Assembly (NCBI GenBank): GCA_903850565.1
Contig: CAINLV010000051.1
Span: forward strand, 1-64,000
DNA from: an uncultured Actinomycetes bacterium
GTDB taxonomy: Bacteria > Actinomycetota > Actinomycetes > Nanopelagicales > Nanopelagicaceae
DNA: 64,000 nucleotides
Direction: 5' to 3'
Positions 5,363-38,876 of the stretch are shown piece by piece (position 1 is the first letter of the stretch; every line of letters starts with the position of its first letter). Below the pieces are notes generated by a model. The model was not told the origin of the DNA and did not search any database. It worked only from the letters and a program-made list of their open reading frames with translations. Made by a program: the position numbers and the translations under genes.

Positions 5363-6595
5363 CTATTTGCCTTTTTTAGGTCCGGAATGTTCTTTCAATG
5401 TGGCCGCCAGAATAAGAGCCGAGGAAAAGATAACGGCCGTTGCGATAAATGCGGCCCGATAGGAAATTAAGTCGGTGAGCGTTCCAAGGACGATTGGTCC
5501 CACGATCATTCCGGCGTCACCGGCCATTTGGAAGAGTGCTATGACTTGTCCACCTCTGCCACCAAACAAATCACCCACGATGCTTGCTGGCGCGGTTCCG
5601 ATGAAAGCGCCACCTAGACCGAAGAGAATCATGGCCAGGAAATAGAAGGAGACATGAGTAGCCGTTATCAATGCAAATAGGGCTCCCAAGAGAAAAGAAG
5701 TTCCCACCAAAATCGAAAAGCGTCGGCCACGATGATCGGATACTTTTCCAGCAAAGATGAGAAGTGCTCCTTGGGCTAGCGCTGAAACCGTGAAACCAAA
5801 TCCCACCATGGAGGTTGTGGAGTGAAGTTTTTCCGTCACAAAGAGCGGCAATATGGAACTTCGAAGTCCAAAGAGGGTCCAGTTGCTTAAGAAAACAATG
5901 ACAAGCACCACTCGATAGGGATAGCTCTTCAATGCATCCCGAATTGTAATTCGGTTTGTTGGATCCTGAATTTCTTGAATCTTGCGACCCAGATGTTTTT
6001 CCTTCAGGAAGGTTGTTGCCGTAAATGAAGCCATCAAAAGGGTTGCAGCATAAACAAAGAAAGGGGAGCGCAGCGAAATAGCGCTGAGGATTCCACCGAA
6101 CGCGGGACCAGCAATTCCGCCTAGAAGAAAACCGCTGTTATAAAAAGATTGCGCTTGAGCGCGTTGGGCGTCTGTGACTGATCGCATGAGCAGGGCGCTC
6201 GCCGAAACGGAAAACATGGAAGATCCCAAACCGCCAGCCGCTCGAAAAACTAATAGTTGAATGTAACTGTTGGCCAGGCCGCAGGCCAAGGAAGAGATGG
6301 CTACTAAAAACAGTCCAACAGCTAATACTTTCCGTTCGCCAAATTTATCTACCAATCGACCCGATACTAATCCGGAACTAAACCTAGACATGGCAAAAGC
6401 AGAGATGATCAAGCCGATGGCTGTTTTATTAACGCCAAAGGTGCGAGCGAAAAGTGGAATGGCGGGAATAATCAGGCCATATCCTACGGCGACAAAAAAA
6501 CCGACTACCGAAAGAACAGTTACTTCTTTCGGTAGTCGGTTTTCTTTAGAAGTTTTAACCGAGGGCCTCGCCGGCAGCTTCGGTCTGAGCAGCAT
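5363..6595 (-). CDS. MFS transporter (about 12 TM)
   Basis: A 410-residue major facilitator superfamily protein with about 12 membrane segments. The loop 2-3 motif SGLVSGRLVDKFGERKV and its pseudo-repeat ALIFAGKVSDHRGRRFS identify an MFS exporter-like protein; the substrate is unknown. The first usable start is ATG 6595, giving a 41-nt overlap with the upstream MFS gene; a further in-frame ATG at 6655 is less likely. No ATG, GTG or TTG lies between 6595 and the first membrane helix. The codons for helix 1 contain a perfect 20-bp inverted repeat with a T-run, which reads as the upstream gene's terminator. Confidence 0.82.
   Translation of the reverse strand: MLLRPKLPARPSVKTSKENRLPKEVTVLSVVGFFVAVGYGLIIPAIPLFARTFGVNKTAIGLIISAFAMSRFSSGLVSGRLVDKFGERKVLAVGLFLVAISSLACGLANSYIQLLVFRAAGGLGSSMFSVSASALLMRSVTDAQRAQAQSFYNSGFLLGGIAGPAFGGILSAISLRSPFFVYAATLLMASFTATTFLKEKHLGRKIQEIQDPTNRITIRDALKSYPYRVVLVIVFLSNWTLFGLRSSILPLFVTEKLHSTTSMVGFGFTVSALAQGALLIFAGKVSDHRGRRFSILVGTSFLLGALFALITATHVSFYFLAMILFGLGGAFIGTAPASIVGDLFGGRGGQVIALFQMAGDAGMIVGPIVLGTLTDLISYRAAFIATAVIFSSALILAATLKEHSGPKKGK
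6494..6543 (-). terminator. intrinsic terminator nested inside the next coding sequence
   Basis: Bases 6497-6516 and 6524-6543 form a perfect 20-bp inverted repeat with a 7-nt loop. On the minus strand it ends in seven T's (6494-6500). It starts 12 nt after the stop of the DHA2 exporter gene yet lies within codons 18-34 of the downstream MFS gene (numbered from the 6595 start). Confidence 0.85.
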
Positions 6596-8153
6596 GATGT
6601 TCGGCGCCGGTTCGCAATTTCGTTTCCCGTAGGAAGAGCGCAATAACAAAGCCAAGAGCAGTTACTGGAGCTGCAGCATAAAAGACCACATGGAAGGACT
6701 GGACGAAGGAGTGCAAGATCGAATCTCTAACAGCAGGTGGCAAAGTCTTCAGCACCGAGGTGTTGTTAGTGATCTGCTTTAACGCGCCAGCAGGAACATC
6801 AGCTAACGCCTTCGGATCCTTTGCCGCCAATCCGGCCAAACCGCTTTGAATGTAGTGTGCAGCGCGGTTGCTAAAAATGGAACCAAAGAGTGCAGTTCCG
6901 AAAGCACTTCCCAGGGAACGGAAGAAGGTATTCGAACTGGTTGCAACGCCCAAGTCACGGAATTCGACGGCATTCTGGAGCGCAATAACAATGGTCTGCA
7001 TGCTCAGACCCAAACCAGCACCTACGCAAATTGCGAAGATGGAGAGTCGCCAAAATGGTGTGGTTTCGTTCAAAGTAGTCATTGCCATAATGCCACCGGT
7101 GATGATTGCAAGACCAGCAACTGGATAGCGCTTGTAATGACCATGCTTGCTGATCATCTTTCCGCTGAAGATTGACATAGAAACAATGCCGAGCATCAAT
7201 GGAATCAATTTCAATCCAGCAGTAGTAGCTGAGTCGCCTTTTACAACTTGCAGGTAGAGAGGCAACATAACAATGGCGCCAAACATTCCGCCACCGATAA
7301 CGAAGCCGAGCAAAGATGTTATGGAGAAAGTGTGATTCTTAAATAAGCGCAATGGCAAAATAGGTTCTGGAGCGCGGGATTCTTGCCATAGAAAAGCTAA
7401 AGCCAAAATCAAACCGCCGACCAAGGACATAATTGTCTTGGAATCTTTCCAGCCATTTTGTGGTCCATAGACAGAGACGGCCAACAGAATGGAACACACT
7501 GCAAGAACCATAAGTAGCGCACCTAAATAATCGATCTTGTGTTCGCGCTTAACTTTAGGAATATGAAGCACTGCTGAAGTAATAACTAACGCAGCAATTC
7601 CGAACGGTAGGTTGATGTAGAAAATCCAACGCCAACCGGTAACACCGAAGAGGCTGGTGCGGTCCGAGAAGAAGCCACCAAGTAGTGGACCAGCAACAGA
7701 GGACAAGCCCCAGACTGCGCCGAAGTAACCTTGATAACGACCTCGCTCACGTGGAGAAATAATGTCGCCAATGATCACGAAGGTAAGGCTCATCAAACCG
7801 CCAGCTCCCAGACCTTGGATGGCACGGAAGGCGATTAATTGAGTCATGCTTTGTGAAGCACCGGCAAGGAAGGAACCAATAAGAAAGGTAACGATCGCAA
7901 ATTGAAATACTGGGCGGCGGCCATACAGATCGGAAATCTTTCCGTAAAGCGGTGTTGATGCGGTCGATGTTAGTAAATAAGCGGTGACCACCCAGGTGTA
8001 ATGATTAAGTCCGCTGAAATCTTCGACAATCTTTTTGAGGGCAGTGGAAACAATGGTTTGATCCAGTGCTGCTAGTAGCATGCCCATCATGAGTCCACTG
8101 AGGACCACCATGATTTCTTTGTGAGTCAGCGGTCCTGTTTTCGGTTGCGACAT
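6555..8153 (-). CDS. MFS drug exporter, DHA2 (EmrB/QacA) family
   Basis: A 532-residue protein with about 14 membrane segments. Motif C-like LAALDQTIVSTALKKI in helix 1, loop motif LYGKISDLYGRRPVF, and AIQGLGAGGLMSL with RERGRYQGYFGAVWGL are typical of DHA2 proton antiporters that export drugs and other amphiphiles. The C-terminal extension is typical of the family. The start has a clean AGAAGGG Shine-Dalgarno sequence. It is divergent from the DrrAB-like ABC exporter, separated by 155 nt that must hold both promoters. A minus-strand terminator follows immediately. Confidence 0.9.
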   Translation of the reverse strand: MSQPKTGPLTHKEIMVVLSGLMMGMLLAALDQTIVSTALKKIVEDFSGLNHYTWVVTAYLLTSTASTPLYGKISDLYGRRPVFQFAIVTFLIGSFLAGASQSMTQLIAFRAIQGLGAGGLMSLTFVIIGDIISPRERGRYQGYFGAVWGLSSVAGPLLGGFFSDRTSLFGVTGWRWIFYINLPFGIAALVITSAVLHIPKVKREHKIDYLGALLMVLAVCSILLAVSVYGPQNGWKDSKTIMSLVGGLILALAFLWQESRAPEPILPLRLFKNHTFSITSLLGFVIGGGMFGAIVMLPLYLQVVKGDSATTAGLKLIPLMLGIVSMSIFSGKMISKHGHYKRYPVAGLAIITGGIMAMTTLNETTPFWRLSIFAICVGAGLGLSMQTIVIALQNAVEFRDLGVATSSNTFFRSLGSAFGTALFGSIFSNRAAHYIQSGLAGLAAKDPKALADVPAGALKQITNNTSVLKTLPPAVRDSILHSFVQSFHVVFYAAAPVTALGFVIALFLRETKLRTGAEHHAAQTEAAGEALG

Positions 8154-8308: not shown

Positions 8309-9265
8309 GTGAAAAGTATTCTTGCCGAAAATCTCACAAAGACATATCCCAAAGGTCAGGTCAAAGCGCTTGATGATCTGAGCCTAGATGTTGAAGAAGG
8401 CACGGTCTTAGCCTTGCTCGGGCCTAATGGCTCTGGGAAAACCACGACGGTTCGTATTCTTGCTACGTTGTTGAACCCAGACTCAGGGCGCGCGCTGGTT
8501 GGTGGCATCGATGTCACTGAACATCCGGATCAAGTTCGCCAAATCATTGGACTGTCAGGTCAGTACGCAGCGCTGGATGAAACTTTAACTGGCTGGGATA
8601 ACTTGACCATGTTCGGTCGCCTCTATCACCTCTCGGGAACCGCGGCGAAAGCGCGAGCAACCGAATTACTAGAACGATTCTCACTCACTGACGCTGCTAA
8701 GCGCCCGATTCGAACTTATTCCGGTGGTATGCGCAGGCGGCTGGATTTAGCGGCATCGCTGATAATTAAGCCAAAAGTTCTTTTCCTCGATGAACCCACT
8801 ACCGGTCTGGATCCACGTGGCCGCCAGGAGATGTGGGGAGTCATCGACGAACTAGTCAAAGGTGGCGTCACCCTTCTCCTTACGACTCAATATCTGGAAG
8901 AAGCAGATCAATTAGCCGATGACATCGCAGTTATTGATCATGGCAAAGTTATTGCTCGCGGAACTTCAGATCAATTGAAGAGTACGGTCGGTGGCGAGCG
9001 CTTAGAGCTGGTGGTTGAGGCACAATTTGTAGCTCGCGCTACCGAACTAGTCGCAACAACTCTGGGTGTCCCGCCGCACATCGATGAAAGTATGCGCCGA
9101 ATAACGGCGCCAGTAACGGATGGCGGTGCATCGCTCATTCGAATCTTGCGGGCTCTGGATGAACAACAAATCCATCCATTAGATATCGCTCTTAAGCGGC
9201 CTTCGTTAGATGACGTCTTTATCTCGCTCACAGGTCATATTGCCGAAGAGGTGAAAAATGATTGA
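8309..9265 (+). CDS. ABC exporter ATP-binding protein, DrrA family
   Basis: A 318-residue ATPase with Walker A GPNGSGKT at 38-45, signature YSGGMRRRLDLA near 137, Walker B VLFLDEPTTGLDP near 157, and the H-loop position replaced by Q (TTQYLEEAD), as is common in DrrA-type proteins. The C-terminal domain of about 80 residues (LELVVEAQF onward) fits the DrrA group, which pairs with ABC-2 permeases to export drugs or lipids. Start is GTG. It overlaps the permease gene by 8 nt. Close to two MFS exporters, so the region is rich in export functions. Confidence 0.92.
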   Translation: MKSILAENLTKTYPKGQVKALDDLSLDVEEGTVLALLGPNGSGKTTTVRILATLLNPDSGRALVGGIDVTEHPDQVRQIIGLSGQYAALDETLTGWDNLTMFGRLYHLSGTAAKARATELLERFSLTDAAKRPIRTYSGGMRRRLDLAASLIIKPKVLFLDEPTTGLDPRGRQEMWGVIDELVKGGVTLLLTTQYLEEADQLADDIAVIDHGKVIARGTSDQLKSTVGGERLELVVEAQFVARATELVATTLGVPPHIDESMRRITAPVTDGGASLIRILRALDEQQIHPLDIALKRPSLDDVFISLTGHIAEEVKND

Positions 9266-10055
9266 AACAATTGTTGATTGTCTAATCATCACTAAGCGCC
9301 AACTCTTGCAGTTGGTCCGCGTTCCTGAAGTCCTTATTTTCGCAATCATCCAACCGGCAATGTTCGTCCTTCTCTTTAGATATGTTTTTGGTGGCGCCAT
9401 TTCGGCCGGCGTTCCTGGTGGTTATGTTCAACTGCTTATGCCAGGAATCTTTGTTCAGACCGTTGCCTTTACCTTGGCCGGTACTGCCGTTGGACTAGCC
9501 GAAGATATGCAAAAAGGTTTGATAGATCGCTTCCGTTCCTTACCTATTGCCAGGTCCGCAGTTGTTATCGGAAGGACCCTGGGTGATTCAACTCAAAACA
9601 TTGTCACCTTAGTTGTGATGGGGCTGGTGGGCTTTGCCGTTGGTTGGCGGCCATCATCGGGAATTGTGAAAGTCACCCTGGCTTTCTTTTTTCTCCTGCT
9701 CTTTGGTTTCGCTATGTCGTGGATCGGTGTTCTCATTGGGCTCTCCGTTAGAGAAGCTCGGGTTGCTCAGAACTTGGTCTTTATCTCAGTCTTCCCATTG
9801 ACCTTTTTATCTAACGCTTTTGCTCCCACAACAGGCATGCCGCGGGTGCTGCAATATTTCGCCGAATGGAATCCCGTCTCCACAATGGTGGCCGGTTGCC
9901 GTGAACTCTTTGGAACGCCAAATAAGTTTGGTGCCACGGCCAGTTCTTGGCCCAGCGAGCATCCACTTTGGATGTCCTTGATTTATATGGCCTTGATTGT
10001 GGCGGTCTTTCTGCCACTGAGCGTGCGAAAATATAAGAACGCGGCCTCGAAGTAA
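9258..10055 (+). CDS. ABC-2 type permease, DrrB family
   Basis: A 265-residue protein with six hydrophobic segments and the ABC-2 signature region (FRSLPIARSAVVIGRTLGD). It contains FLSNAFAPTTGMPRVLQYFAEWNPVS, typical of DrrB-like permeases. It should form the membrane channel for the ATPase encoded immediately upstream, with which it overlaps by 8 nt. Substrate unknown. The stop lies only 16 nt from the convergent greA stop, and no hairpin is visible between them. Confidence 0.9.
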   Translation: MIETIVDCLIITKRQLLQLVRVPEVLIFAIIQPAMFVLLFRYVFGGAISAGVPGGYVQLLMPGIFVQTVAFTLAGTAVGLAEDMQKGLIDRFRSLPIARSAVVIGRTLGDSTQNIVTLVVMGLVGFAVGWRPSSGIVKVTLAFFFLLLFGFAMSWIGVLIGLSVREARVAQNLVFISVFPLTFLSNAFAPTTGMPRVLQYFAEWNPVSTMVAGCRELFGTPNKFGATASSWPSEHPLWMSLIYMALIVAVFLPLSVRKYKNAASK

Positions 10056-35386: not shown

Positions 35387-36409
35387 ATGTCAGAAGATAC
35401 GAGCTTTCCCGCCCCGCAGCGCCCCATTTTGAACCTGCCTTTTTCTCGGGCAGTAGTAGATCGAGCCGCCCACCTTCGAATGGATGCGTCCGAGCTGGAA
35501 AAACTCTGGGACCGGGCACGGATTATCCATTTCGCATCCGGCAAATTTAGAGTCGTAGCCCAGGAAGTGCGCCGCGCGATTGAAGCCGATGGAACCGCGC
35601 AACGGAACCAACTGGCCGATAAATTGGAATTTTTAACGGGCGCACAGGTAGAAGATCTTTCGCAATTAGATGAATTTTCCAATGGTGATCGATTCTTTCT
35701 CGGCATGGATGGTGAGCAACCATATTTTGCATGGAGCGCTGAAGTTATGGACATTGATCAATTCGAGCAATATCAAACACTTCGAGATGTCGGTGGAGAT
35801 TTATCGGATTTGGAAATTGGGTTAGCAGTTCATGCACAAGCCCTAGCGAATTGGCACGCCAAGCACCCGCGATGTTCGTTATGTGGAGCACCAACAAAAC
35901 CGGCACTGGGTGGTTCGGTGCGGCGGTGCACTACGGATGAAACTGAACATTATCCGCGTAACGATCCAGCGATCATTGTTTTGATAAAAGATAAGCGGGA
36001 TCGAATTCTTCTGGGTCGGCAGAAAGTGTGGCCACCAATGCGCTTTTCCACATTCGCTGGTTTTGTGGAGCCGGGTGAATCTTTCGAGCAATGTGTAATC
36101 CGCGAGGTTCAAGAAGAAGCCGGAATTCACGTCACGGAAATTCGATATCTTGGTTCGCAGCCGTGGCCATTTCCAGCATCGTTAATGATCGCTTTCGAAG
36201 CAGTCACCGATGAGCCAGACCTTGCTCGTCCAGATGGACAAGAGATTGAAGAAATTCAGTGGCTTACTCGCGATGAATTGCGCAATGCCGTTCACAACAA
36301 AACTTTGCTCTTGCCTCCACGCATTAGCGTCGCCCGTCAGATGATTGAAGCCTGGTATGGAGCCAATGCCAAACGCGATCTCTCAGGTGGAGAAGTTTGG
36401 CGTTCGTGA
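35387..36409 (+). CDS. nudC: NudC-family NAD+ diphosphatase
   Basis: A 340-residue Nudix hydrolase. Order: N-terminal domain, zinc ribbon HPRCSLCGAPTKPALGGSVRRC, the Nudix box GFVEPGESFEQCVIREVQEEAGI and the NudC signature SQPWPFPASLM. It cleaves NAD(H) to NMN(H) and AMP and can remove NAD caps from RNA. Only three of the four usual ribbon cysteines are present; the fourth position reads Asp (CTTD). ATG 35387 is preferred, with GTG 35384 directly before it. It is followed 1 nt later by the best uvrD2 start, as in Mycobacterium, where nudC and uvrD2 are neighbours. Confidence 0.93.
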   Translation: MSEDTSFPAPQRPILNLPFSRAVVDRAAHLRMDASELEKLWDRARIIHFASGKFRVVAQEVRRAIEADGTAQRNQLADKLEFLTGAQVEDLSQLDEFSNGDRFFLGMDGEQPYFAWSAEVMDIDQFEQYQTLRDVGGDLSDLEIGLAVHAQALANWHAKHPRCSLCGAPTKPALGGSVRRCTTDETEHYPRNDPAIIVLIKDKRDRILLGRQKVWPPMRFSTFAGFVEPGESFEQCVIREVQEEAGIHVTEIRYLGSQPWPFPASLMIAFEAVTDEPDLARPDGQEIEEIQWLTRDELRNAVHNKTLLLPPRISVARQMIEAWYGANAKRDLSGGEVWRS

Positions 36410-36410
36410 A

Positions 36411-38084
36411 GTGGCGCTAGATCTGGAAGCGATTCTTGAAGGGTTAGACCCCGATCAGCAAGAGGTGGTGAAGTCCATCCGCGGTCCGGTCTGCGTTATT
36501 GCTGGAGCGGGAACTGGCAAAACTCGCGTCGTTACCCATCGAATCGCCTACGCAGTGGGCAGCGGCATCACTGATGCTTCGCACACATTGGCGCTGACTT
36601 TTACGGCACGAGCCGCCGGTGAAATGCGGGCCAGACTTCGAGCGTTGGGTATTCCCAATGCATCTGCGCGGACCTTCCACTCTGCGGCGTTAAAACAGCT
36701 GATGTATTTCTGGCCGTACTCACTTGGCGGTTCTTTTCCTTCGCTGCTGACGATGAAATCAGGATTCATCGGCGAAGCCATTGGCCGAGCGGATGTACCG
36801 TTGGCGCCACAGGCGGCAGTTCTTCGCGATATTGCCGGTGAAATTGAATGGGCGAAGTCGCTAGAAATTCCACCAGATGAATATGTCGAAAGCGCGTTGG
36901 GTGCGGCTAGGACAATCCGATTGCCCAATAACAAAGCGAACAAAGCGGCACTGGAAGATGTTTCGAAGGTCTATCAAGCCTATGAGACCTTAAAGCGACA
37001 AGAACGAACTATTGATTTCGAAGATGTTTTGCTTTTGACGGTGGGCATGTTGGAAGAAGATCGCGACGTCCGAGATCGCATTCGAGATCAATTTCGCTAT
37101 TTCACCGTCGATGAGTATCAGGATGTTTCGCCGTTGCAGCAACGGCTGCTTAATTTGTGGTTGGGTAATCGGGATGATCTCTGCGTGGTGGGGGATGCGG
37201 CGCAGACCATTTACTCTTTTGCCGGTGCATCTTCTTCGTACCTATTAACTTTCCCAAAGCGATTCCCGGAAGCGAAAGTTATTCGACTGACTCGTGGATA
37301 CCGTTCTACTCCAGAGATTATTACATCGGCCAATGCCGTGCTGCGACAGGGAAATCTACACAATGAAAGTGGATTTGAACTTTCCTCGGTAAACGAACAT
37401 GGCGTCGCGCCTGCAACTCATGGCTATGAAAATAGTGATTCAGAAGTAGCAAGCGTCGTAGATCGCATTGAGGCTCTGGTCGCTGCTTCTAAATCCTTTG
37501 GCGATTTGAATGATGTGGATCTATCTGGCCATTTAGAGATTGCAATCTTGGCCCGAACCAATGCGCAATTGACGCCCTTCGAACAGGAATTGCGTCGAAG
37601 AAAGATAGCAACGCAAATAAAATCCTCTGAACGTTTCTTTGAGCGCGTAGATGTGCGCGACGCAATGCGCGTTATTCGAAGCGCATCCGTTCTTCCCACC
37701 GAAGGAGGAGATTGGTATTCCGATCTTTCTTCGGTTCTTCGCCCATTTGGTGAGGCCGATTATGTCCATGCCTTCCTGCGGTTAGGCAGAGAATTAAGGA
37801 ACAATGGCGCGGCCAGCTTACGAACTTTTCTTCGTGAATTAGAAGATCGGGCCGAACAAAATAACCCACCTACTTTGCCTGGCGTCATGCTCGCAACGCT
37901 GCATTCGGCGAAAGGGTTGGAGTGGGATCATGTCTTCCTGGTCGGCGTCAGCGAAGGATTCCTACCGATGGGTAGTGACATTAATGAAGAACGGCGCCTT
38001 TTCTATGTGGGATTAACGCGAGCAAAAAGTCAGGTACATCTTTCTTATTCTGGAACTCCAAGCCCCTTCTTGCAGGTCCTGTAA
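36411..38084 (+). CDS. uvrD2: UvrD2-like SF1 DNA helicase, short form
   Basis: A 557-residue 3'-5' helicase. Walker A is GAGTGKT (32-38), then LTFTARAAGEMRARL, the VDEYQDVSPLQQ Walker B, VGDAAQTIYSF, TRGYRSTPEI, TLHSAKGLEWDHVFLVG and RRLFYVGLTRAKSQVHLSYSG. GTG 36411 gives the family's usual 10-11 residues before GLDPDQQ; ATG 36366 would overlap nudC by 44 nt. It ends soon after motif VI, so it lacks the HRDC and tetracysteine regions that complete mycobacterial UvrD2 (about 700 residues). whiB7 follows. Confidence 0.9.
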   Translation: MALDLEAILEGLDPDQQEVVKSIRGPVCVIAGAGTGKTRVVTHRIAYAVGSGITDASHTLALTFTARAAGEMRARLRALGIPNASARTFHSAALKQLMYFWPYSLGGSFPSLLTMKSGFIGEAIGRADVPLAPQAAVLRDIAGEIEWAKSLEIPPDEYVESALGAARTIRLPNNKANKAALEDVSKVYQAYETLKRQERTIDFEDVLLLTVGMLEEDRDVRDRIRDQFRYFTVDEYQDVSPLQQRLLNLWLGNRDDLCVVGDAAQTIYSFAGASSSYLLTFPKRFPEAKVIRLTRGYRSTPEIITSANAVLRQGNLHNESGFELSSVNEHGVAPATHGYENSDSEVASVVDRIEALVAASKSFGDLNDVDLSGHLEIAILARTNAQLTPFEQELRRRKIATQIKSSERFFERVDVRDAMRVIRSASVLPTEGGDWYSDLSSVLRPFGEADYVHAFLRLGRELRNNGAASLRTFLRELEDRAEQNNPPTLPGVMLATLHSAKGLEWDHVFLVGVSEGFLPMGSDINEERRLFYVGLTRAKSQVHLSYSGTPSPFLQVL

Positions 38085-38129
38085 TTTATTGGTTTGCATT
38101 TTTTCCCTCGTGTCGTTTACCCTACTCAC

Positions 38130-38149
38130 TTACCATTAAAAAATGGTAA
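38130..38149. promoter_or_regulatory. palindrome in the whiB7 promoter region
   Basis: ttaccatt (38130-38137) and aatggtaa (38142-38149) form a perfect inverted repeat around aaaa. gtttacc at 38115 and ggtaaac at 38145 pair as well. The surrounding 38085-38160 is AT-rich, consistent with a WhiB7-type autoregulated promoter, but I cannot assign -35 and -10 hexamers with confidence. Confidence 0.4.
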
Positions 38150-38185
38150 ACAGAATCATTACGGCGTTCTGAAAGGGGTAGCAAA

Positions 38186-38386
38186 ATGAAGCAATTCTCA
38201 ATGTTTGACGCTACTTCTATGCATCGCCTCGCCATCGTCTCAGGCGTGGCTTCACAGTCAAACCCTCAAACCCATACCTGGCAAGGCTCAGTCGCATCAT
38301 TGAATTTTGCGGCCACAGCCAATTACGCCAACTACACAAATTTTGCAAAGTATGGAAACCGCGGATCTTGGAGATATATCGGATAA
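38186..38386 (+). CDS. whiB7 leader peptide (upstream ORF)
   Basis: ATG 38186 follows a strong GAAAGGGG site and opens a 66-codon frame. The peptide is polar and aromatic, ending NYANYTNFAKYGNRGSWRYIG. It resembles no protein family. Its stop codon lies inside a 6-bp hairpin and is followed within 20 nt by an intrinsic terminator, then by whiB7. In Mycobacterium and Streptomyces, ribosome stalling on a whiB7/wblC leader ORF by translation inhibitors prevents termination; the layout here is the same. The peptide itself probably has no function beyond timing ribosomes. Confidence 0.75.
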   Translation: MKQFSMFDATSMHRLAIVSGVASQSNPQTHTWQGSVASLNFAATANYANYTNFAKYGNRGSWRYIG

Positions 38387-38445
38387 CCCGATAGAACAGC
38401 CAAGAGGCCGCAAATCCATAAAAGGATTTAGCGGTCTTTTTTATT
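38377..38445 (+). promoter_or_regulatory. whiB7 transcription attenuator
   Basis: Hairpin 1: tatcgg (38377-38382) with ccgata (38388-38393), spanning the leader ORF stop. Hairpin 2 is the terminator at 38404-38444. A ribosome finishing or stalled in the leader would cover hairpin 1 and change folding. accgc at 38358-38362 can pair with gcggt in the terminator's 3' arm, a possible antiterminator. The mechanism is inferred from known whiB7/wblC leaders. Confidence 0.7.
38404..38444 (+). terminator. intrinsic terminator in the whiB7 leader
   Basis: aggccgc and aaatcc pair with ggattt and gcggtct across a one-base bulge (13 bp in total, loop ataaaa), followed by TTTTTT. It lies between the leader ORF and whiB7, with no gene that it would otherwise end. 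Confidence 0.85.
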
Positions 38446-38507
38446 TTCCCCGTTCAAAACCGAATAACCAAAGAAAGAACCACAAGAGATAAATGGAGGT
38501 GAGAACA

Positions 38508-38876
38508 ATGACCGTTCTCTTCAGCGAACTGCTGGTACCAGGATGGGCCCAAGGCCCGGATGCAAAGATCGGGCTGTCTGCTGTGACCGCACCGTCGGAT
38601 ACATCAGATTCACGAAATGGCACGGGGCTTAATTTGCCTTGCCATTCCGTAGACCCGGAAACATTTTTCGCCGAAACTCCAGCCATGATCGCCTTTGCGA
38701 AGTCGCTCTGCAGTGAGTGCCCAGTTCGTCTTCAATGTTTAGAGGGCGCTATCTCTCGCCAAGAACCTTGTGGCGTATGGGGTGGGGAACTCTTCGATGA
38801 TGGAGTACCGGTATTGGCAAAGCGAATGCCAGGCCGACCACGCCTGCAACGAAATGATGTTGAACTAGCTGGTTAG
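38508..38876 (+). CDS. whiB7: WhiB7 antibiotic-response transcription factor
   Basis: A 122-residue WhiB protein. Cysteines C45, C68, C71 and C77 bind a 4Fe-4S cluster, GVWGG is at 89-93, and an AT-hook PGRPR lies at 108-112. The AT-hook after the GVWGG turn distinguishes WhiB7, which binds the primary sigma factor and an AT-rich element upstream of target promoters. It induces intrinsic resistance to ribosome-targeting antibiotics. ATG 38508 is 7 nt after GGAGGT, so the in-frame ATG at 38493 is unlikely. The position after uvrD2 matches Mycobacterium. Efflux genes in this window could be targets, but no site was identified. Confidence 0.92.
   Translation: MTVLFSELLVPGWAQGPDAKIGLSAVTAPSDTSDSRNGTGLNLPCHSVDPETFFAETPAMIAFAKSLCSECPVRLQCLEGAISRQEPCGVWGGELFDDGVPVLAKRMPGRPRLQRNDVELAG

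Follow-up and report, generated by a model that had tools for sequence, protein, structure and literature searches.

A whiB7/wblC-type uORF attenuator with covarying alternative helices very probably drives whiB7 in the Nanopelagicaceae

The whiB7 gene of an uncultured actinobacterium of the family Nanopelagicaceae is very probably autoregulated and driven through a uORF transcription attenuator of the whiB7/wblC type. We analysed a stretch of 64,000 nucleotides (the window), in which a promoter, a 66-codon leader ORF, a hairpin over its stop codon, a terminator and whiB7 can be read from the sequence in this order (Table 1). The locus is a well-conserved case of a known attenuator, whose function under translation inhibition we infer from homology and anatomy. 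What is new here is the family-wide covariation of the RNA helices, the conservation of leader composition without conserved sequence, and the alternation between SD-led and near-leaderless leaders. The earlier note on this DNA had recognized that a moderate-GC actinobacterium carries a whiB7 attenuation module here, with a 66-codon leader, strong ribosome site, stop hairpin, 13-bp terminator with six T's and whiB7 with its AT-hook, in that order. Both the list of parts and the class stand, leader and terminator being conserved and covarying in relatives. The module was also called complete; the named parts are indeed all present, but that description lacked the antiterminator, whose inner helix the stop hairpin forms. 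The precedent invoked, leader-ORF attenuation in Mycobacterium and Streptomyces, is established for whiB7/wblC, both for termination after the uORF (PMC4128351, Dinan 2014) and for an antiterminator on antibiotic or starvation (PMC11550727, PMC13393426, PMC13236596).

Table 1. Features of the whiB7 locus, with positions in the window.
Feature	Position	Strand	Basis
uvrD2-type helicase gene, 5' of whiB7	36366..38084	+	Pfam UvrD-helicase 1e-52
AT-rich block (ATTTATTGGT) adjoining the -35 upstream; putative WhiB7 AT-hook site (autoregulation)	38084..38093	+	conserved A/T-rich block in family loci
Promoter: -35 TTGCAT 38094-38099, 18-nt spacer, -10 TACCCT 38118-38123	38094..38123	+	spacing conserved in family
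5'-terminal RNA hairpin TTACCATT-AAAA-AATGGTAA, near predicted transcription start	38130..38149	+	fold z = -3.0
Leader ribosome-binding site AAAGGGG, 7 nt 5' of ATG	38172..38178	+	sequence
Leader ORF (uORF), 66 codons plus TAA (38384-38386): MKQFSMFDATSMHRLAIVSGVASQSNPQTHTWQGSVASLNFAATANYANYTNFAKYGNRGSWRYIG	38186..38386	+	ORF; family-wide leader ORFs; composition constraint; slow codon position 2
Antiterminator 5' strand, within leader ORF: TATGGA 38351-38356, GCGG 38361-38364, TCTTGG 38366-38371	38351..38371	+	fold; matched partner test
Stop-codon hairpin TATCGG-ATAAC-CCGATA, enclosing the leader TAA; inner helix of antiterminator	38377..38393	+	matched partner test
Antiterminator 3' strand: CCAAGA 38400-38405, CCGC 38408-38411, TCCATA 38415-38420	38400..38420	+	fold; matched partner test
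Intrinsic terminator: hairpin 38404-38438, 13-bp stem, one bulge; T tract (six T's) 38437-38442	38404..38442	+	-19 kcal/mol; matched partner test
whiB7 ribosome-binding site GGAGG	38495..38499	+	AGGTGAGAAC-ATG context kept in family
whiB7, 122 aa	38508..38876	+	Pfam Whib; PDB 7kif match; start by conserved context

The gene downstream of the terminator is identified as whiB7/wblC by the predicted WhiB domain (Pfam Whib, 2.6e-15), four Cys ligands, GVWGGE turn and C-terminal AT-hook PGRPR of its product. WhiB7 of M. tuberculosis (PDB 7kif) matches it with an E-value of 3.9e-24, the alignment running through the AT-hook GRPR. A start at 38493 had been given previously; we replaced it by 38508, because the AGGTGAGAAC-ATG context is conserved in the family. 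The window protein has a Cys in EPCGVWGGE (38760-38790) at the position of the Trp in the EPWGVWGGE of Mycobacterium- and Streptomyces-like proteins. Among 107 distinct WhiB7 sequences, the residue before GVWGGE is Cys in 48, Trp in 36 and Ala or Val in 21; this Cys is possibly an extra cysteine near the iron-sulfur site. An NCBIfam search with WhiB7 and the leader gave no match, and an Rfam search of the region returned no covariance-model match up to E = 1. The terminator hairpin was missed by a simple terminator scan, probably owing to its bulge.

Among Nanopelagicaceae genomes, whiB7 is present in 179 of 201, and in 96 of the 99 good ones. At the threshold used, at least three near-complete genomes (G008, which is 98% complete, G013 and G192) gave no whiB7 match, possibly reflecting lineage losses. 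Upstream DNA was taken for about 90 family loci, 72 of which had usable upstream sequence. Those relatives that carry names are freshwater actinobacterial MAGs, including a Candidatus Nanopelagicales bacterium and the single cell SCGC AAA028-A23, in keeping with membership of the acI group. Four public MAGs in the set (L080, L082, L085, L088) bear the name Bifidobacterium breve or Streptomycetaceae bacterium in their records and are apparently mislabelled. All 72 usable loci have a leader ORF and, after its end, a terminator of about -18 to -26 kcal/mol, so that the arrangement in the window is not a chance one; the terminator of L044 was placed by eye, the scan having chosen another hairpin, and the leader stops of three loci were re-assigned by hand. 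The conservation in relatives that the earlier note had proposed as a check is therefore there in every usable locus. In cleanly assigned loci the distance from stop to terminator is 18-25 nt. The uvrD2 coding sequence ends immediately 5' of the leader in several relatives, as it does in the window. Genera g6, g11 and g14, added later, have both leader and terminator; in g6 and g14 the leaders are short, about 27-29 codons, and the antiterminators weaker or unclear. One very short leader from g6 (L124) ends ...AFWYAMIPPTE and one from g14 (L122) ends ...AFWYGATPPTPEL, each before the conserved terminator. We found no study of whiB7 in Nanopelagicales in the literature searched. The antibiotic-stress switch of whiB7, described in actinobacteria from soil and in pathogenic ones, is now seen in nearly every genus of a streamlined lake family, and this family-wide presence argues for an ancestral sensing of translation trouble rather than of clinical drugs.

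Folding of the window RNA revealed the element on which the switch turns, namely a helix between the leader 3' codons and the terminator 5' arm. The codons TATGGA/GCGG/TCTTGG pair with TCCATA/CCGC/CCAAGA and enclose the stop hairpin, and the 3' strand of this antiterminator shares bases with the terminator 5' arm. If the leader 3' end is unoccupied, the emerging RNA folds best into the antiterminator, which over the full stretch is slightly ahead at -32.8 kcal/mol, the best terminator state having -30.7 kcal/mol; these energies refer to naked RNA at 37 C and lie only 2 kcal/mol apart. With a ribosome placed on the stop codon, the terminator alone remains (-20.8 kcal/mol). Antiterminator and terminator are thus predicted to be mutually exclusive, and their computed energies in the window are nearly equal.

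Since the register of the antiterminator shifts by 1-2 nt between genera, we dropped column-wise pair counting on a MAFFT alignment and tested the pairing by partner swap, in which the 5' strand of one genome is paired with the 3' strand of another and no alignment is needed. For the extended antiterminator, own partners gave -24.2 kcal/mol and swapped ones -19.4 kcal/mol (n = 44, z = -9.8, 0 of 20,000 permutations). With one genome per genus (n = 13), a version that lessens but does not remove the effect of relatedness, z was -4.7 and none of 50,000 permutations, which preserve composition, was as good. The covariation that had been suggested as a check for the two hairpins was clearly positive in the matched partner test, both for the stop hairpin (z = -6.8, 0 of 20,000) and for the terminator (z = -11.0). 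Compensatory sets can also be seen by eye in the antiterminator, such as ATGGA:TCCAT (L001) versus ACGGA:TCCGT (L038), CTTGG:CCAAG versus CCTGG:CCAGG and GCGG:CCGC versus GAGGCC:GGCCTC, and in the stop hairpin, which occurs as ATCGG:CCGAT, ATGG:CCAT and AGGC:GCCT. All three helices are species-matched within genomes.

These parts suggest how the locus would work. A WhiB7-type promoter (AT block, TTGCAT, 18 nt, TACCCT) would give a transcript beginning with the leader ORF. During healthy translation, a ribosome reaching the leader stop would cover the stop hairpin together with the codons at the leader 3' end; the terminator 5' arm would thereby be left free, the terminator would fold and transcription would end near 38442, before whiB7. 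If ribosomes stalled in the leader body, or did not initiate, the leader 3' codons would pair with the terminator 5' arm around the stop hairpin. Because its 5' arm would then be occupied, the terminator could not form, and RNA polymerase would read through, so that WhiB7 would be made and could boost its own promoter. We infer here the read-through on translation inhibition, the autoactivation by WhiB7 and the identity of the inducing drugs or starvation signals.

The promoter is itself conserved in the family and consists of an A/T-rich block (typically TTAATTA), three bases, TTGC, 18 nt and TACCCT. Of 44 family loci, nearly all have this block before TTGC, and 43 keep the 18-nt spacing. WhiB7 acts at AT-rich blocks of this kind through its AT-hook; the autoregulatory signature, an AT-rich block next to the -35, is present, and the site in the window is a putative one for WhiB7 binding. 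Close to half of the loci are leaderless or nearly so, their leader ATG following the -10 by 6-9 nt (up to about 20). In the remaining loci, including the window, the 5' UTR is longer; it usually contains a ribosome site and begins, at the predicted 5' end, with a hairpin. The mean fold z at the 5' end is -1.44 in relatives with a long 5' UTR (n = 23) and +0.54 in those with a short one (n = 21). In the window (38130-38149) and in L008, L035, L039, L046 and L085, the hairpin stands at the predicted transcript start and its sequence is unrelated between genera; leaders starting 6-9 nt after the -10 are without it. The 5' hairpin may protect the RNA.

Across the genome, the whiB7-type promoter has a single mismatch-free match, at whiB7 itself; the next-best match falls within a long open frame on another contig, and a looser pattern found no second such promoter in the window. 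A whiB7 regulon sharing the same promoter motif was therefore rejected, as only whiB7 matches without mismatch, though the search leaves room for weaker WhiB7 sites. The efflux genes that had been proposed as nearby targets, two MFS genes (5363-8153) and a DrrAB-like pair (8309-10055), identified by reading the sequence rather than by family search, do not bear out that proposal: they lie about 28-33 kb upstream, and no whiB7-type promoter was seen at them.

What the leader itself senses may be reflected in its composition. Leader bodies are almost free to vary across the family, and yet their make-up is constrained: counts from related sequences, and hence descriptive, show W (log2 1.3), T, H, A, S and Y enriched and D, E, L, I and V depleted, with Trp in 42 of 42 leaders and His in 41 of 42. 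The bias is found at codon position 2, with position 3 and folding energy like those of ordinary genes, which indicates an effect at the level of the peptide. On the same grounds we rejected base composition, and likewise an avoidance of RNA structure, as the cause of the amino-acid make-up. Between related leaders, codon position 2 is also the slowest to change, and synonymous changes are weakly in excess (0.31 versus 0.25), consistent with amino acids exchanging freely while the overall composition stays fixed. Relative to flanking genes at the same loci, the codon ACA is used at 0.43 against 0.22 expected and TCA at 0.55 against 0.32. In the window leader body (38189-38353), up to the last ten codons, 6 of 7 serines of the TCN type use TCA, compared with 0.20 in flanking genes. 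We tentatively suggest that the leader senses through its composition rather than its sequence (Ala/Thr/Ser, Trp, His and Tyr being abundant, acidic residues nearly absent, Leu scarce and codon choice biased towards ACA/TCA), such that many kinds of translation trouble would stall the ribosome upstream of the switch, and that lineages toggle between a near-leaderless form and an SD-led form capped by a 5' hairpin. If the composition reading is true, drugs with residue-dependent stalling and shortage of costly amino acids would both be sensed. Natural variation in the family separates what the RNA needs (three helices) from what the peptide needs (composition), making the question of what whiB7 leaders sense a testable one.

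The same composition would be expected of an amino-acid starvation attenuator, in which the leader would chiefly respond to uncharged tRNAs (Trp, His, Tyr, Thr, Ser, Ala). Besides the enriched residues, the near-universal Trp and His, the bias at position 2 rather than 3 and the roughly twofold use of ACA and TCA relative to flanking genes, the uORF-dependent induction of whiB7 on amino-acid starvation (PMC11550727, PMC13393426) speaks for it. However, no amino acid dominates the leader or forms a run, and in other bacteria whiB7 leaders react to a wide range of ribosome inhibitors. Starvation as the main signal is rather doubtful, and it is compatible with, not opposed to, the uORF attenuator explanation.

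Another candidate is a drug-specific arrest peptide of the ermC/ermB leader type, in which a C-terminal sequence stalls the drug-bound ribosome and the peptide itself matters. The C-terminus [GA][TS]W[SR]x[I]G directly before the stop does recur in most of the family and across most genera, and leaders carry aromatic clusters upstream (AFxY, FATK). The window leader ends NRGSWRYIG, so that the aromatic run WRYIG pointed out in the earlier note is present. However, the Trp codon TGG lies within the antiterminator and ATCGG-TAA within the stop hairpin, and some genera have kept the RNA element while changing the peptide (EATGGSTR, TPGSYIG and GTREIAG before the stop); in L025, a one-base shift of CCTGGAG gives the reading TPGASIE. 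Because the conserved codons lie in helices and the genera with changed peptides kept the RNA element, the run is best explained as mostly a by-product of RNA pairing, not as an arrest motif. No conserved arrest peptide independent of RNA pairing was found, the conserved C-terminal codons coinciding with the helices. A ribosome halted on the last codons would, moreover, cover the antiterminator strand and favour termination. The arrest peptide is thus improbable. A ligand riboswitch or other RNA-only attenuator with an incidental ORF would suit the strong, conserved alternative structures and the poorly conserved leader-body peptide, but it is very improbable given the lack of an Rfam match and of any aptamer-like element seen apart from the switch helices, the ORF kept at this place in all genera seen, the slow codon position 2 and the constrained amino-acid composition.

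The uORF attenuator explanation also fits what is known of other actinobacteria, a similar fold being found in other actinobacterial whiB7 leaders. Attenuators of this kind are reportedly described for the Streptomyces wblC uORF by Lee, Lee and Roe in 2022 (Mol Microbiol 117:179), and for the Mycobacterium whiB7 uORF by Poulton in 2024; the mycobacterial uORF reportedly links whiB7 to alanine starvation. For comparison we used genomes that we provisionally label Streptomyces-like (f3/g19) and Mycobacterium-like (f4). Streptomyces-like wblC loci have the same order of promoter, uORF, terminator and whiB7 as the window, and in them, too, the uORF 3' end and the terminator 5' arm form a helix that encloses a stop hairpin. 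Their promoter (AT-rich block, TTGCGC, 18 nt, TAGGTT) follows the same TTGC-18-TAnnnT plan as that of the family. The leader body differs, with the end WAFRGPEPWSDPA in place of the NRGSWRYIG of the window, and the window helices are less G+C-rich. The description of the window leader peptide as unrelated was too strong, since its C-terminus recurs in most of the family and CCTGGAG and the W/S at -5/-4 are common to the family TWSxIG and to Streptomyces-like leaders, which end ...PWSDPA. This likeness points either to a shared ancestry of the leader 3' end or to one RNA constraint acting on both. Mycobacterium-like loci share the plan, with uORF, stop hairpin and a terminator 5' arm (GGCCACGGA) pairing with the uORF (TCCGTGG); unlike the window leader, theirs are Ala-rich, end VDRSFI or VERSLV and are without the TGGAG element. 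The ilvB1, trp and his leaders likewise couple a leader peptide to an alternative terminator and antiterminator. In contrast to these, the window leader has no run of one regulatory amino acid, and it controls a stress regulator, whereas they control a biosynthetic operon.
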